A stretch of 58,223 nt of DNA from Parvularcula dongshanensis (GTDB lineage: Bacteria; Pseudomonadota; Alphaproteobacteria; Caulobacterales; Parvularculaceae), in NCBI RefSeq assembly GCF_014199615.1, contig NZ_JACHOB010000008.1:1-58223 (forward strand). Direction: 5' to 3'. Positions within the stretch are counted from its first letter, which is position 1. Each line of letters begins with the position of its first letter. A model generated the notes under the pieces. It ran no database searches and was not told where the DNA came from. It was given only the letters and a program-made list of their open reading frames with translations. Shown in pieces: positions 34,860 through 39,245 of this stretch. Made by a program: the position numbers and the translations under genes.

Positions 34860-34887
34860 CGGAGGTGCGACGCCGCCGCCCGCTTTC

Positions 34888-35006
34888 ACCTCTCCCTCTG
34901 GGAGAGGTCCAAATCTTCGATTTGGGGTGAGGGCTATCGAGGTTAGCGCTTAGTAGCTCTGCCGCTGGCCCTCACCCGAAGCCGCTGACGCGCCTTCGAC
35001 CTCTCC
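34888..35006. repeat. Nested palindromic host repeat, left part (split by insertion)
   Basis: Hairpins lie side by side: ACCTCTCCC/GGGAGAGGT at 34888-34908, CCAAATC/GATTTGG at 34909-34925, and GGTGAGGG at 34926-34933 pairing with CCCTCACC at 34969-34976. The last motif ACCTCTCC at 34999-35006 is cut off here and resumes at 37991-38010 as ACCTCTCCC/GGGAGAGGT. Removing the mobile element restores an approximately 130-bp unit with a hairpin at each end. Confidence 0.75.
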
Positions 35007-35029
35007 GGCCTTATGTAGCAAGAGCACCA
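35005..35029 (+). repeat. Left terminal inverted repeat of the IS1595-type element
   Basis: CCGGCCTTATGTA followed by GCAAGAGCACCA. It pairs with the right end at 22 of 25 positions. Confidence 0.88.
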
Positions 35030-35039
35030 AGCGCAGAGG

Positions 35040-35062
35040 CCCGGAAACGCTTACGTTTCGGG
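35040..35062 (+). promoter_or_regulatory. Hairpin at the ribosome-binding position of the first element gene
   Basis: CCCGGAAACG and CGTTTCGGG form a 9-bp stem with one bulged G and a CTTA loop, ending one base before the ATG at 35064. In several insertion sequences such terminal hairpins limit translation from outside transcripts; that role is inferred here. Confidence 0.5.
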
Positions 35063-35063
35063 C

Positions 35064-35543
35064 ATGGAACATACCTACACGATCAGTGGACTGCTAGAGC
35101 ACCGGGCGCAAGTCGCGGGCGAGGTCGAGTTCTACCGGCACAAAGCGGCTCACGCTGCGGAGTTGCTGGGCGCGGTCGATCAAGTGTTGCGCTCGCTTGG
35201 CTACGAAGGCTCGGACATCACGGCACCGCCGAAGCGCGTACAGGCGGCAGGCCTGTTCCGGCGAGGCGAGTTGTCCCGGACGATTATGGCGACGCTCAGA
35301 GAGGCCCCGGAAGGCGTCACCGTGGACGGGATAGCTCGGCTGATCTGCCGCGAGCGAGGTTGGGACACTGACGACGCCAAGTGGATGACGGCGCTGCGGG
35401 CGAAGATCGGTCGTGCCCTCAGCAAGAAGAGGGCAAAGGGGCAAGTGACCAGCGAGGAAAGGGCGGGCACTTGGTACTGGTGTGTCGCGCCGGTGACGGG
35501 GCGCCCGGAGGCACCCCGCCTGCTAGCGGGCGCAGCCGGCTAG
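35064..35543 (+). CDS. Passenger protein with predicted winged-helix domain
   Basis: A 159-residue protein. Residues 1-50 form a coiled-coil-like helix (MEHTYTISGLLEHRAQVAGE onward). Residues 70-140 read as a winged helix: LSRTIMATLREAPEGVTVDG, IARLICRERGW, then a basic IGRALSKKRAKGQVTS wing. This arrangement occurs in uncharacterised alphaproteobacterial proteins I have seen as short hypothetical genes; the function is unknown. It lies at the left end of the mobile element and may be regulatory. The ATG sits under a hairpin with no clear Shine-Dalgarno. Confidence 0.65.
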   Translation: MEHTYTISGLLEHRAQVAGEVEFYRHKAAHAAELLGAVDQVLRSLGYEGSDITAPPKRVQAAGLFRRGELSRTIMATLREAPEGVTVDGIARLICRERGWDTDDAKWMTALRAKIGRALSKKRAKGQVTSEERAGTWYWCVAPVTGRPEAPRLLAGAAG

Positions 35544-35553
35544 CGACCTGCTC

Positions 35554-35661
35554 TTACTTGCAGGGCTTGGGTTTTGACCGCGTATGGGTCTTCACCCGTA
35601 CGGTCTTCGGTCCCGGTTTAGGGGTGGTCCGCACAACGCGGGTCTTGGTCTTACAAGCCAT
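35554..35661 (-). CDS. 35-residue Lys/Arg/Thr/Pro-rich peptide
   Basis: A short gene with a strong ribosome site (GAAGGAG, 8 nt before the ATG at 35661). The product begins MACKTKTRVVRTTPKPGPKT and ends in KPKPCK, with alternating basic residues, five Pro and a Cys near each end. It has no hydrophobic segment. Such composition suggests nucleic-acid or polyanion binding. It lies between the first passenger gene and the transposase, in the same direction as the transposase. No family recognised. Confidence 0.55.
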   Translation of the reverse strand: MACKTKTRVVRTTPKPGPKTVRVKTHTRSKPKPCK

Positions 35662-35903
35662 GATGCTGGCTCCTTCACAGAGCGTGCACCGCTTGACGCT
35701 AAGCTTGACGGGTCACATAGGAGCCCGGCATTATGGCGCTCTGATCGGCAGCGATGCACTGATTTGGCCGATCACCGTGGCCCGGGTAGTTGGCGCTCCC
35801 GGGCCACAGCTTTGTCTCCCCTCAACTACACGGGCGTCGGACTAGAGTGCAAGTTTGTACTCTTTTCGTTCACGCACATCCTGATTTTGAGTCGATCCGA
35901 CTC

Positions 35904-36869
35904 CTACGCTGCCCGCTGCCAGTACCCAGCCCACTGGCGGCTGACGGGTGACGCCATGGCGAGCCCAGCGAGGCGACCTGCGAGCTTGCCGTTCGGCTCG
36001 CGGCGGTGATCCTCTAGCCACGCTGCATGGCCTGCGTACTGGTGCAGGTATTGCGGGCTGACGTGGTGGTGCTGGCCGCCGATCATCCGGCGCAGACGCG
36101 AGAAGAAGCTTTCCGCCTGGTTTGTGCAGGCCCCGGCGATGCTGTAGCCCTCGCGGTGATCGATCCGGGCCATGGGGAAGGCCGCTTCCAGCGCGTCCCA
36201 ATGGCCCGCTTCGTCTGCGTGAAGCTCAGAGCCCGGCGCGATCCGCGCGGCGGCGAAGGGCACGCCTTCGGCTTCCGTGCGGGTGACGGTCGTGATCGTT
36301 CGACCTTGCTTCTCGCGAACAGCGATGACGACGCGGCGCTTGCCGGTCTGGTGCTTCGCGAGGCGGCGGTCGATCCGATCCTCGCGACGGTTCGCCTGAC
36401 GGATCTTGCCGCCGACGTAGCAGCCGTCAATCTCGACCGCGCCGCGAAGGATCATTGCGCGTGTCTCGCCAGACATGGCCTCGCGGACCTTGTGCGCCAG
36501 GACGAACGCGGTCTTGTACTGCACGTCGAGGTCACGGCTGAGCTGCACCGTGCTCAGGCCCTTGGCACCGTTCACGATGAGTAGGATGCCCGCCAGCAGG
36601 TCCGTGAAGGCGAGCTTACGGCTCGCGAAGATCGTGCCCGACGTGACGGAGAACTGGTGACGGCAGACAGCCTCGCGGCACTTGAACTTGCGGCGCGTCG
36701 TGATGCTGTAAGCGTAGAGCGAGCCGCAGCGGGGGCACACGGGCGCGCCGTCCGTCTCAGGCCAACGGACCTTGCAGAAGGTCTCATACGCCTTCTCCTC
36801 ACCGGCTTTGTAAATCGTGGCGAGGCTCAGCGTGCGGGACTTTGCGGAGAGAAGGAAGTGCTGCGCCAT
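35904..36869 (-). CDS. IS1595-family transposase
   Basis: A 321-residue transposase with an N-terminal zinc ribbon (Cys45, Cys48, Cys64, Cys69) followed by the ISXO2-like catalytic domain. Likely catalytic residues are Asp148 (AVEIDGCYVGGK), Asp219 (LHADEAGHW) and the Asn250/Glu253 region (CTNQAESFFSRLRRM), with the family motif GGQHHHVSPQYLHQYAGHAA near 265-284. The frame is complete and looks active. It is divergent from the DUF6471 gene, sharing the operator array between them. Confidence 0.95.
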   Translation of the reverse strand: MAQHFLLSAKSRTLSLATIYKAGEEKAYETFCKVRWPETDGAPVCPRCGSLYAYSITTRRKFKCREAVCRHQFSVTSGTIFASRKLAFTDLLAGILLIVNGAKGLSTVQLSRDLDVQYKTAFVLAHKVREAMSGETRAMILRGAVEIDGCYVGGKIRQANRREDRIDRRLAKHQTGKRRVVIAVREKQGRTITTVTRTEAEGVPFAAARIAPGSELHADEAGHWDALEAAFPMARIDHREGYSIAGACTNQAESFFSRLRRMIGGQHHHVSPQYLHQYAGHAAWLEDHRREPNGKLAGRLAGLAMASPVSRQWAGYWQRAA

Positions 36870-36881
36870 GGTATTGCCTAC

Positions 36882-36961
36882 GATGCCTTACGGCATCATA
36901 GATAGTACCATACGGTACTGTTTGCAATGCCGGCAGTACCGTATATGCTGCGGAAAGTACC
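36882..36961. promoter_or_regulatory. Operator array between transposase and DUF6471 genes
   Basis: Four copies of AGTACC/GGTACT start at 36904, 36914 (inverted), 36935 and 36956. The first two form the palindrome AGTACCATACGGTACT; the last three are spaced exactly 21 bp apart, two helical turns. A separate palindrome GATGCC-TTAC-GGCATC is at 36882-36897 next to the transposase ATG. The last copy ends 3 nt before the AGGAG of the DUF6471 gene. This looks like binding of a multimeric regulator controlling both genes. Confidence 0.7.
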
Positions 36962-36976
36962 GCAGGAGATACCTAC

Positions 36977-37201
36977 ATGCCGTCGACCGATTGGGAAGCG
37001 CGTGCCTCCAACCTTCTCAAGGCTGAGTTGAAGCGTCGGGGAGTGACTTACGGCCAACTCGTTGAGAAGTTGGCAGCTATCGGCGTTGACGAGAAGGAGG
37101 CTAACATCAAGAACAAGCTCAGCCGAGGCAAGTTCTCGGCCGTTTTCATGTTGCAAGCTCTATCTGCTATTGGCTGTTCTACTATCGTTATTAGCGAATA
37201 G
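36977..37201 (+). CDS. DUF6471 protein, likely element-encoded regulator
   Basis: A 74-residue protein of the DUF6471 family: DWEARASNLLKAELKRRGVT, YGQLVEKLAAIG, ANIKNKLSRGKFSAVFMLQA. The order of helices resembles a Cro/CI-type helix-turn-helix, so I infer DNA binding. AGGAG precedes the ATG. It is divergent from the transposase with the AGTACC array between, which fits a repressor of transposition. It overlaps the membrane gene tail to tail by 42 nt. Confidence 0.8.
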   Translation: MPSTDWEARASNLLKAELKRRGVTYGQLVEKLAAIGVDEKEANIKNKLSRGKFSAVFMLQALSAIGCSTIVISE

Positions 37202-37921
37202 CGGCGCGAAATCTTGTCGGTCCGGACTCGTACAGTATGGGAGTTCGCGCAAGAATTCCACGCTATAATCTCCGGTTTTCGCAAAACTCACTACGTGATC
37301 AATAAGCGCCCTATATGATGTATACCGTTGATCCACAGTGAATCCTTCCTCTCTTATCTGCGTCGCGCTTCTGATTGGCACCCGCTGTAGCTCGAACATC
37401 ATTTCTACCACGGCATGATAAAAATATTCAGCCTCTGGCAAAGTAACCGCAAGCTCTCTCATTAGCGAACTGTATTCTTGAGTGCCTTCAATAATTTCAA
37501 GAGGAGGCATAGTTTTGTAAGCAGTAGACTCTCTCCTAAATCGCTTCAATTCATCAACGATGGACTCACGTATCTTAGCCTCCCTGATCGCCATCCTCTC
37601 GCGCAAAGCGGTAGTGCGAATTCTTTCCGGCGCGGTGAGTTCTTGTTCTAATTGCGCGATCCGCTGCTGATCTACTCGCCAGATCTGATAGGGCGCGGAA
37701 AGAATGCGAACCAGAACCACCCCGCCGAACGCAAGCGCGATGTAGACAGGGATAAGCTGTGCGATCTGATCCGGCATATCAGCGCCGGAGAGTTGGAAGA
37801 ATGCTTGCGCGATGGGCGGCACGGTGAAACCCAGCGCGTCGATGAACCGTAGACTCGGGCGCGTCGCATGTTCCCAGATACGGGTAAGGTAACGTGCCGC
37901 CATAGCATGGCTGTACCCCAT
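37160..37921 (-). CDS. Passenger membrane protein with coiled-coil
   Basis: A protein of up to 253 residues. There are hydrophobic segments near 28-46 and 55-75, a coiled coil near 83-125 (DQQRIAQLEQELTAPERIRT onward), and a soluble C-terminal domain with FYHAVVEMMFELQRVPIRSA. No enzymatic motif seen. Base composition is distinctly more A+T-rich than its neighbours, suggesting a foreign source. A second start at 37903 is possible. It ends the mobile element; role unknown, perhaps surface or phage-related defence, but nothing shows this. Confidence 0.65.
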   Translation of the reverse strand: MGYSHAMAARYLTRIWEHATRPSLRFIDALGFTVPPIAQAFFQLSGADMPDQIAQLIPVYIALAFGGVVLVRILSAPYQIWRVDQQRIAQLEQELTAPERIRTTALRERMAIREAKIRESIVDELKRFRRESTAYKTMPPLEIIEGTQEYSSLMRELAVTLPEAEYFYHAVVEMMFELQRVPIRSATQIREEGFTVDQRYTSYRALIDHVVSFAKTGDYSVEFLRELPYCTSPDRQDFAPLFANNDSRTANSR

Positions 37922-37965
37922 ACCGGGCGAGTAGTGGACTCCGCGCCATGCTAGTCACTGAGCCC

Positions 37966-37990
37966 TGGTGCGTTTGATACATAAGGCCGG
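37966..37990 (-). repeat. Right terminal inverted repeat of the IS1595-type element
   Basis: Read on the minus strand: CCGGCCTTATGTA then TCAAACGCACCA. Followed on the plus strand by the target repeat ACCTCTCC and the rest of the host hairpin. Confidence 0.88.
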
Positions 37991-38010
37991 ACCTCTCCCG
38001 AGGGAGAGGT

Positions 38011-38486
38011 AACAAGAACGCGGAACTTATCCCCGCCCCCTCATCTCCTGCCATGTTGCCCCCGTTCTCCCGGACAGGCCGGGCGGTGTGCACGCTACTC
38101 ATCGGTTCGGGGGACGGTGATCCTAAGGCGAGCGGGCGTAGCGGCCCGTACCATGAGTGGCTGATCGGGGCTCATGGCTCATCGCTGAAGGACGAGGGTT
38201 TCAAGCGCTATCGCGGACCAAGGCGCCGAAAGGTCGCCCCCTGCGAGGGCCCCTTGGCAAGATCACCGCCGGACGTTCACCGTTCTGGGCTACAGTATCA
38301 ATCCAACTCCCCGCTCAGCGCGGGGACGTCCGGACACCCGGCCCATCGTACACCCCGCTAGGCGGGCGCTTCGGCATGCGCGCTGCCCTTCCGAGGCCGG
38401 ACGGCTGCTCTTCGAACTTGCCTTTCCGTTAACGTACCGTTTACGTGCTCACCGCGCCCCGGGGAGAGGGGCTTGGGGAGAGTACG
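38011..38486. other. Gene-free stretch with small hairpins
   Basis: About 475 bp without a convincing gene. Short frames on both strands lack ribosome sites and family features. It contains a hairpin CCCCGC-TCAGC-GCGGGG near 38311-38327 and other GC-rich inverted repeats. I compared it by eye with tmRNA, SRP RNA, RNase P RNA and 6S RNA and found none of their conserved cores. The last 50 bp should hold the promoter of the VPLPA-CTERM gene. Confidence 0.4.
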
Positions 38487-39245
38487 ATGAAGACCAAGCT
38501 GACAGCGCTCTGTGCGCTGAGCGCCCTTTGTGGCACCGCCGCGGCCGCGCCCGTCGCGGTCGACTTGTCGAGCTGGACGGCGGAGGGGCAGGGCACCTGG
38601 ACCAACGCGCCCGACAACAACAGCGTCGTTCAGACCGTCAACGGCATTCCGGGCGTCTACTTCAACGGCGTCGACAGCCAGGGTCAGGCGCTCTCGGGCA
38701 CGATCGAGGTCCAGTCGACCGGTGACGACGACTACATCGGCTTCGTCCTCGGCTACAACGCCGGCGACATCGCGAACGAGGACGCGAACTACATCTTGAT
38801 CGACTGGAAGCAGGGCGATCAGAACTACTATGGCGGCCTCGGCCGGGCAGGCCTCGCGATCAGCCGCGTGACCGGCGCCCTCGACGACGCCTCGGGCGCC
38901 TGGTGGCACGACGCCGCCGACGGGGTCGAAGAACTCGCCCGCGCGAACACCCTGGGCGACACCGGCTGGGAAGACCTCACGGTCTACAACTTCGACCTCG
39001 TCTTCACCGAGGGCCTGATCCAGGTCTTCGTCGACGACGTGCTCGAGATCAGCCTGCCCGGCGTCTACGAGAACGGCAGCTTCGGCTTCTACAACTACAG
39101 CCAGGCCAACGTACGCTACGGCGCCCTGACGCAGCAGGTCGTGGACCCCGATCCCGTACCGCTGCCCGCGGCGGCGGCGCTCTTCGCGCCGGTCCTCTTC
39201 GGCGGCGCCGCGCTCCGCCGCAGGGCGAAGCGCGCAGCGGCCTAG
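38487..39245 (+). CDS. VPLPA-CTERM sorted exported protein with TSP C-like domain
   Basis: A 252-residue exported protein with a signal peptide (1-21), a lectin/laminin-like jelly-roll domain (DDYIGFVLGYNAGD, NYILIDWKQGDQN, LIQVFVDDVLEISLPGVYEN, GSFGFYNYSQ) resembling the thrombospondin C-terminal fold, and a C-terminal sorting signal: VPLPAAAALFAPVLFGGAAL followed by RRRAKR. Such tails are processed by exosortase-type systems in the envelope. No exosortase is in the window. Its stop overlaps asd by 4 nt, tail to tail. Confidence 0.85.
   Translation: MKTKLTALCALSALCGTAAAAPVAVDLSSWTAEGQGTWTNAPDNNSVVQTVNGIPGVYFNGVDSQGQALSGTIEVQSTGDDDYIGFVLGYNAGDIANEDANYILIDWKQGDQNYYGGLGRAGLAISRVTGALDDASGAWWHDAADGVEELARANTLGDTGWEDLTVYNFDLVFTEGLIQVFVDDVLEISLPGVYENGSFGFYNYSQANVRYGALTQQVVDPDPVPLPAAAALFAPVLFGGAALRRRAKRAAA

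Follow-up and report, generated by a model that had tools for sequence, protein, structure and literature searches.

An IS1595-family transposon of Parvularcula dongshanensis from a group with near-constant winged-helix and DUF6471 genes and variable cargo slots

The 58,223-nucleotide stretch of Parvularcula dongshanensis DNA analyzed here (contig NZ_JACHOB010000008.1, positions 1 to 58,223; hereafter the window) contains a structurally complete, 2984-bp IS1595-family transposon at 35006-37989. Between its ends lie a gene for a winged-helix protein, an open reading frame (ORF) of 35 amino acids (aa), the transposase gene, a DUF6471 gene and a gene for an orphan 253-aa membrane protein (Table 1). 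An initial annotation, made from the letters alone, had proposed an IS1595-type element with an 8-bp target duplication and extra genes; the ends, an exact duplication and an uninterrupted 321-aa transposase frame bear this out, and all the ORFs that it named are present.

Table 1. Features of the transposon and its insertion site (window positions)
Feature	Position	Strand	Basis or remark
Interspersed palindromic repeat, insertion target	34886..35005, resuming 37998-38010		ACCTCTCCC..GGGAGAGGT family
Target duplication, left copy	34998..35005		exact 8 bp, GACCTCTC
Left terminal inverted repeat	35006..35029	+	CGGCCTTATGTAGCAAGAGCACCA; repeat search and comparison of fetched regions
Winged-helix protein, 159 aa, long N-terminal helix	35064..35543	+	structure model; near-constant left-end gene
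35-aa basic ORF	35554..35661	-	Shine-Dalgarno-like sequence; putative coding ORF
IS1595-family transposase, 321 aa	35904..36869	-	zinc ribbon and DDE_Tnp_IS1595
Divergent transposase/DUF6471 intergenic region	36870..36976		length of ~105 bp conserved in relatives
Palindrome GATGCC-TTAC-GGCATC, proposed operator	36882..36897		position conserved, half-sites covary in relatives
Proposed transposase promoter	36899..36927	-	conserved columns, by eye
DUF6471 protein, 74 aa, XRE-type helix-turn-helix fold	36977..37201	+	Pfam 3.2e-31 and structure model
Orphan 253-aa protein, right-slot cargo	37160..37921	-	one membrane helix (hydropathy), charged stretch after it
Right terminal inverted repeat	37966..37989	-	CGGCCTTATGTATCAAACGCACCA when read inward
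Target duplication, right copy	37990..37997		exact 8 bp, GACCTCTC

The terminal repeats are near-perfect (CGGCCTTATGTA...). The inverted pair 35004-35029/37966-37991 (26 nt, 88% complementary) ranked first among the inverted pairs listed for the region, and the 25-mer terminal repeat matched only twice in the entire 58-kb window with up to 7 mismatches permitted; the repeats first proposed at both ends are real. For comparison, we retrieved 20 regions: 1 lies in the same genome and 19 are places in genomes of the same bacterial family. Both ends were recognized in 15 of these, one end in 3 and neither in 2, and the window together with the 15 regions with both ends (one from the same genome) gave a 16-element comparison. 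Since CGG or a close variant opens and closes the element across all 16, the true duplication of the window element is GACCTCTC. The direct repeat of the initial annotation is real but its register, ACCTCTCC, which started the element one base early and set the duplication one base too far right, was dropped. The duplication is exact (8/8) in 11 of the 16 elements, and in 54 of 65 paired-end elements of a wider set, described below, that partly overlaps the first.

The transposase matches PF12760 (5.6e-14), PF12762 (DDE_Tnp_IS1595; 2e-36) and NF033547 (5.9e-43). It has the N-terminal zinc ribbon and C-terminal DDE_Tnp_IS1595 domain of the IS1595 family, is bounded by terminal inverted repeats, and the element is flanked on both sides by an 8-bp duplication; zinc ribbon, catalytic domain and duplication are among the family traits given in an excerpt of PMC8101967. 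The family includes carriers of passenger genes, among them ISNha5 with a transcription-regulator passenger (PMC11891212, as excerpted). The window element shares with IS1595/ISNha5 both domains, the duplication and the presence of extra genes, and appears to differ in its near-constant winged-helix and DUF6471 genes and modular cargo slots. Elements of the ISNha5 subgroup end in CGGnnTT, measure several kb and carry passenger genes ("transporter IS"). The ends and passengers seen here agree with this description and the length falls slightly under the size range; placement in this subgroup, on ends and size, is likely.

Re-joining the flanks minus one copy of the duplication yields the palindrome TTCGACCTCTCCCGAGGGAGAGGT, which is uninterrupted at 2 other places of the same genome (one mismatch over the 23 bases searched), and repeats related to it occur at 4 places. 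As the re-joined target, examined here for the empty-site test named initially, matches intact copies of the repeat, insertion is well supported. An orthologous empty site was not found in the three of nine other same-genus genomes that were compared (G051, G053 and G055), because synteny is broken there; in one of the three, the right flank alone is syntenic. The same genome carries a second, decayed copy on contig 7 (L035, 3174-6840), with a fragmented transposase, no DUF6471, other minus-strand ORFs and a duplication matching at 6 of 8 bases. Separately, the composite palindromic repeat ACCTCTCCC..GGGAGAGGT (window 34886-34912, 34963-35005 and 37998-38010) recurs at several places in the genome as a REP-like family.

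Two of the extra genes prove to be standing parts of a wider group of elements. Among the 16 elements, whose ORFs were clustered by BLASTP with tblastn used as well, the winged-helix family is present in 16, DUF6471 in 15 and the transposase in 16 (fragmented in L035). A scan with a DUF6471 alignment, using one genome per species, confirmed 375 loci. The best 80 were carried forward, at least 7 of which coincide with contigs already represented among the family-level regions. Paired ends enclose DUF6471 in 65 of the 80 loci, so that the gene order, for which occurrence without these ends had been named as the test, is found inside them; no end pair was recognized in the remaining 15, several of which run to the end of a contig. 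Where more than one end pair was possible, exact duplications were preferred, but an 8-base match rarely arises by chance; a few of the 65 elements have weak ends on one side (e.g., L091, L130 and L125). Nearly all members of the group have matching CGGnnTTatG-like ends, 8-bp duplications at sites resembling SRNATNYS and, at the left end, a winged-helix gene oriented in most cases toward the transposase; the DUF6471 gene points away from the transposase, with a conserved gap of ~105 bp between the two. With profiles built partly from these same loci, the transposase was found in 62 and the winged-helix gene in 63 of the 65 elements. In 61 of them the latter is a plus-strand gene no more than 700 bp from the left end, the exceptions being L077 (915 bp), L109 (reversed and adjoining the transposase) and L091 and L130 (none); for 9 elements, the short left-end proteins match the winged-helix profile at a probability of 98%. 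The transposase is divergent from and upstream of DUF6471 in 73 of the 80 loci, at a spacing of 99-215 bp, mostly near 105. Reduced forms occur as well: L188 and L189 combine winged-helix gene, DUF6471, membrane gene and exact duplication, with no transposase match.

As a control for a set chosen by DUF6471, 385 genomes of the class were scanned for the transposase (E 1e-60 or better), giving 20 matches in 17 genomes; with the window left out, DUF6471 adjoins 15 of the 19 copies. The winged-helix gene and DUF6471 are thus near-constant parts of the group, and the 35-aa ORF and 253-aa gene are specific to this copy. The initial view of all four extra genes as cargo holds for the latter two and fails for the former (63/65 and 15/19, respectively). 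The window element therefore belongs to a distinct gene-carrying group of the IS1595 family. In a phylum-scale sample of 30 DUF6471 loci, 14 of the 18 within the class (window included) have a transposase match. DUF6471 is a wider protein family that is now near-fixed in this transposon group, mainly in Alphaproteobacteria.

The region between the divergent transposase and DUF6471 genes carries a conserved signal. When 72 such regions of at most 140 bases were aligned (mean column identity 49%), a 6-4-6 palindrome, CGWTRC-nnnn-GYAWCG, appeared near the transposase start in relatives, with at least 5 of 6 arm pairs complementary in 58 of the 72 versus ~14% in shuffles. Its arms vary together (CGTTAC/GTAACG, CGATGC/GCATCG, CGATAC/GTATCG and CATTAC/GTAATG). 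Covariation of this inner palindrome was 0.372 versus 0.176 (sd 0.016) in shuffles, with 0 of 500 as high and slid controls at or below 0.197, and an outer inverted repeat in which it is nested also covaries (0.307 versus 0.205; 0 of 500 as high); shuffling does not remove relatedness, and these figures are support, not probabilities. Beside the palindrome, conserved columns suggest a transposase promoter with a -35-like TTGCAA (36922-36927), a 17-bp spacer and a -10-like TATCTA (36899-36904). A second operator near DUF6471 was considered and dropped.

DUF6471, identified correctly at the outset, has an XRE-type fold in its structure model. By Foldseek the model is closest to the controller (C) proteins of restriction-modification systems, and it also resembles HipB. 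Like C proteins, it is a small XRE-type helix-turn-helix protein; unlike C.Esp1396I, C.BclI and C.AhdI, it neighbors a transposase and not restriction genes. None of the proteins of the window element matches a restriction or methylase family in Pfam, and linkage of DUF6471 to restriction-modification was seen only for relatives carried by plasmids of Acinetobacter and Pseudoalteromonas. As to an operator of the C-protein kind, the covarying palindrome lies at the transposase end, and none is supported at the DUF6471 end. C proteins were not among the 9 PDB sequences matched by the DUF6471 profile (E up to 1). A further comparison is RptR (79 aa), which represses type I restriction islands (PMC12255303, as excerpted). 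Like the proposed DUF6471 repressor it is a very small helical protein; it lies beside restriction genes, with palindromic sites overlapping a -10 box. No close structural relative in PDB is reported there, whereas for DUF6471 C proteins do match. The PDB sequences matched by the DUF6471 profile include none named RptR, the presence of an RptR entry in that copy of PDB being unchecked. Annotated phage records gave no DUF6471 match at E 1e-3, plasmid contexts in Roseomonas and Bradyrhizobium have neither paired ends nor transposase, and the family is not mentioned in the open-licence literature searched.

The winged-helix protein has no Pfam match, and the initial guess at its fold is upheld by a structure model with a predicted local distance difference test score (pLDDT) of 88.5. 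A GAAACG-CTTA-CGTTTC palindrome lies near the start of its gene in the window; palindromes upstream of this gene in relatives are at background level and not enriched. The 35-aa ORF has no convincing homologue in the fetched loci, with weak, low-identity matches only (best E 0.053).

The variable parts occupy two slots. The first separates the winged-helix gene from the transposase and here contains the 35-aa ORF; the second extends from DUF6471 to the right end and here contains the 253-aa protein. In the 65 elements, the right slot holds a membrane protein of one profile family in 42, an opposite-strand gene, as in the window, in 20, and something else in 3. The 253-aa gene is convergent with DUF6471, tail to tail, and overlaps its 3′ end by 42 bp; in the 20 elements with an opposite-strand ORF, this overlaps the end of the DUF6471 domain by 1-59 bp in 12 and not at all in 8. 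These overlaps suggest that the right slot may be exchanged near a fixed border. The right end of the element is A+T-richer than its surroundings, as noticed initially (52% GC versus 68% in the rest of the window). Hydropathy of the 253-aa protein reaches 2.3 at residues 56-74 and 1.19 in an N-terminal stretch; a two-helix reading was dropped, as the scan supports one helix, and the charged stretch looks coiled-coil by eye. Homologues were found neither in 61 other genomes of the family nor on plasmids, and the 385 class genomes gave a single marginal match besides the protein itself (E 9.6e-4, 25% identity). A Pfam match to DUF2681 (E 0.007) is below cut-off and PDB matches are weak (E 0.04-0.05). 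Our leading guess is that the protein may be a toxin-like or anti-phage membrane effector.

Cargo elsewhere in the group points in a similar direction. A Pfam scan covered 139 proteins, 138 from 57 elements plus the 253-aa protein; cargo ORFs were called mechanically, so that some are spurious, and 9 are divergent winged-helix genes. Among the 25 of 45 families listed are the SocA/Panacea antitoxin (10, all confirmed individually), KilA-N (5), DNA methylase (3) and M78 peptidase, Mrr and RelE (2 each), with single cases of an Eco57I-type methylase, RhuM, Clp protease, a Gp49-like toxin and HTH_37. PADLOC matches include methylases, BstA and capP, and 11 of 20 larger cargo proteins had no Pfam family match in single scans. 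These families are absent from the 25 most frequent of 163 flanking-gene families (138 genes sampled of 472; single cases are possible), the frequent ones being mostly metabolic, signaling and repeat families. Several genes next to those for Panacea encode small proteins that contain hydrophobic segments, which fits the membrane toxins reported for Panacea in an excerpt of PMC8832971, whose authors also note closeness to transposases. Two elements carry a methylase with an Mrr/NA-iREase1-like region inside the transposon, fused in one protein in L094 (3091-4917) and split over two overlapping ORFs in L109 (2633-4475). A 6.6-kb element (L061, 3711-10333) holds an Eco57I/MmeI-type methylase of 1063 aa; a short distance outside it, at 1333-2640, lies another transposase-DUF6471 pair.

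How might these parts work together? We think it probable that the group combines a near-constant winged-helix gene and a DUF6471 repressor of the transposase with variable cargo slots. The XRE-type fold, the divergent position over ~105 bp and the covarying palindrome at the transposase 5′ end together indicate that DUF6471 probably represses the transposase. The transposase would move the unit by its ends, as expected for the IS1595 family, and DUF6471, presumably as a dimer, would bind the palindrome over the transposase start region and in this way repress transposase expression and probably its own. On arrival of the element in a naive cell, transposase might then be made until DUF6471 accumulates, in the manner of controller proteins for restriction genes. 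The winged-helix protein probably binds DNA and might help or tune transposition. A tentative extension, possible though on balance doubtful, is that these are widespread, mainly alphaproteobacterial, self-timed IS1595-type carriers of immunity modules: DUF6471, a controller-protein-like repressor recruited from or donated to restriction-modification operons, would allow a burst of transposase on entry into a new cell before shutting it off, the two slots would shuttle toxin-antitoxin, restriction and membrane-effector genes between elements, and the 253-aa protein would be a new membrane effector.

Several observations weigh against this reading. Consensus promoter scans did not single out the proposed transposase promoter, a second palindrome on the DUF6471 side showed no covariation beyond shuffles, and all Foldseek E-values for the DUF6471 model exceed 0.1. 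Four of the 19 transposase copies (L207, L219, L220 and the decayed copy of the same genome) lack DUF6471, and an element of 1543 bp from a Limimaricola plasmid, flanked by the exact duplication CAGCAGCT, shows the transposase and winged-helix gene only; DUF6471 is therefore not always required. Outside Alphaproteobacteria only 1 of 12 DUF6471 loci has a transposase match. The divergence of the transposase shows no more than a moderate correlation with that of DUF6471 (Mantel r 0.38, p 0.001), and between DUF6471 and the winged-helix gene there is no significant correlation (r 0.08, p 0.105); with transposase versus winged-helix gene at r 0.23 (p 0.001), the weak correlations imply that the module is partly shuffled. 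Finally, the window genome holds no second near-identical copy, the other copy found being decayed; recent activity is thus no more than possible.

DUF6471 could instead be the antitoxin-like partner of the gene downstream, forming an addiction or defense pair with transposase control secondary. The membrane gene that follows it in 42 of 65 elements starts, in many of them, within the DUF6471 3′ end on the same strand, the fold is also HipB-like, and on plasmids restriction-modification genes and an exporter cluster follow DUF6471. Moreover, a 1393-bp unit (L125) has ends, an exact duplication, DUF6471 and the membrane gene, with a winged-helix profile match counted inside and no transposase match. 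We nevertheless judge this unlikely: DUF6471 is kept in the window and in the 23 of 65 elements where the membrane family is absent, and the palindrome covaries on the transposase side and not on that of the downstream gene. In the window the gene after DUF6471 is on the opposite strand, unlike the adjacent genes of a type II toxin-antitoxin operon.

Still less probable, in our estimate, is that DUF6471 is unrelated to the palindrome and that the nested repeats fold, in the leader RNA of the transposase, into a hairpin masking the ribosome site. The two repeats lie one inside the other immediately ahead of the transposase start, each with more covariation than shuffles give, and the outer one could belong to such a hairpin, a further point against the repressor reading. 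However, the conserved boxes would place the transcript start inside the inner repeat, and mismatched arm pairs show no G-T excess over A-C (GT/TG 14, CA/AC 19). The view that all four extra genes are ordinary passengers acquired by chance, as first annotated, has precedent in passenger-carrying members of the family (PMC11891212, as excerpted), and the 35-aa ORF and 253-aa gene are indeed unique to this copy in the data searched. For these two genes it stands; for the winged-helix gene and DUF6471 it is contradicted by the fixed position of the former in 61 of 65 elements and by DUF6471 being divergent from the transposase at 73 of 80 loci and adjoining 15 of 19 transposases found independently of it, so that as a general account it is very improbable.

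A further parallel is with Tn3-family transposons that carry toxin-antitoxin passengers (Lima-Mendez et al., 2020; PMC7157771, as excerpted), in which accessory genes are likewise tied to the transposition module and toxin-antitoxin genes are cargo. The transposase family, ends and duplication differ, and in the group described here the near-constant part is a regulator plus winged-helix protein, with toxin-antitoxin genes as one of several cargoes. The arrangement was not described in the titles, abstract openings and IS1595 passages of open-licence papers on IS1595 passengers, toxin-antitoxin or restriction genes or Panacea and transposons, most subscription papers lying outside that scope. 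For DUF6471 the comparison supplies a fold, a context and a role open to testing. Genes that would be annotated as passengers of an insertion sequence can belong to the machinery that controls it. Should the timing model be true, restriction systems and transposons establishing in a new cell would offer a direct parallel. Toxin-antitoxin and restriction genes may move by way of the modular slots, a route that has drawn little notice, and the right-slot proteins provide a list of uncharacterized candidates.

Some further loci deserve mention. In family f190, outside the class, DUF6471 sits in a seemingly conserved neighborhood with reading frames of ~130-155, 235 and 350 aa and no transposase match (L230, L233, L234, L236, L238, L239 and L240). 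The Acinetobacter sp. plasmid pYH16056-2 (L159, 5650-10798) may hold a remnant of the same transposon type: part of a transposase is present together with DUF6471 and a paired methyltransferase and helicase, the right end matches weakly, and a left end was not found. Immediately right of the element in the window (38445-39245) is a gene for a protein with a thrombospondin C-terminal-like domain (Pfam 3e-12) and, judged by eye, a VPLPA-type C-terminal tail.

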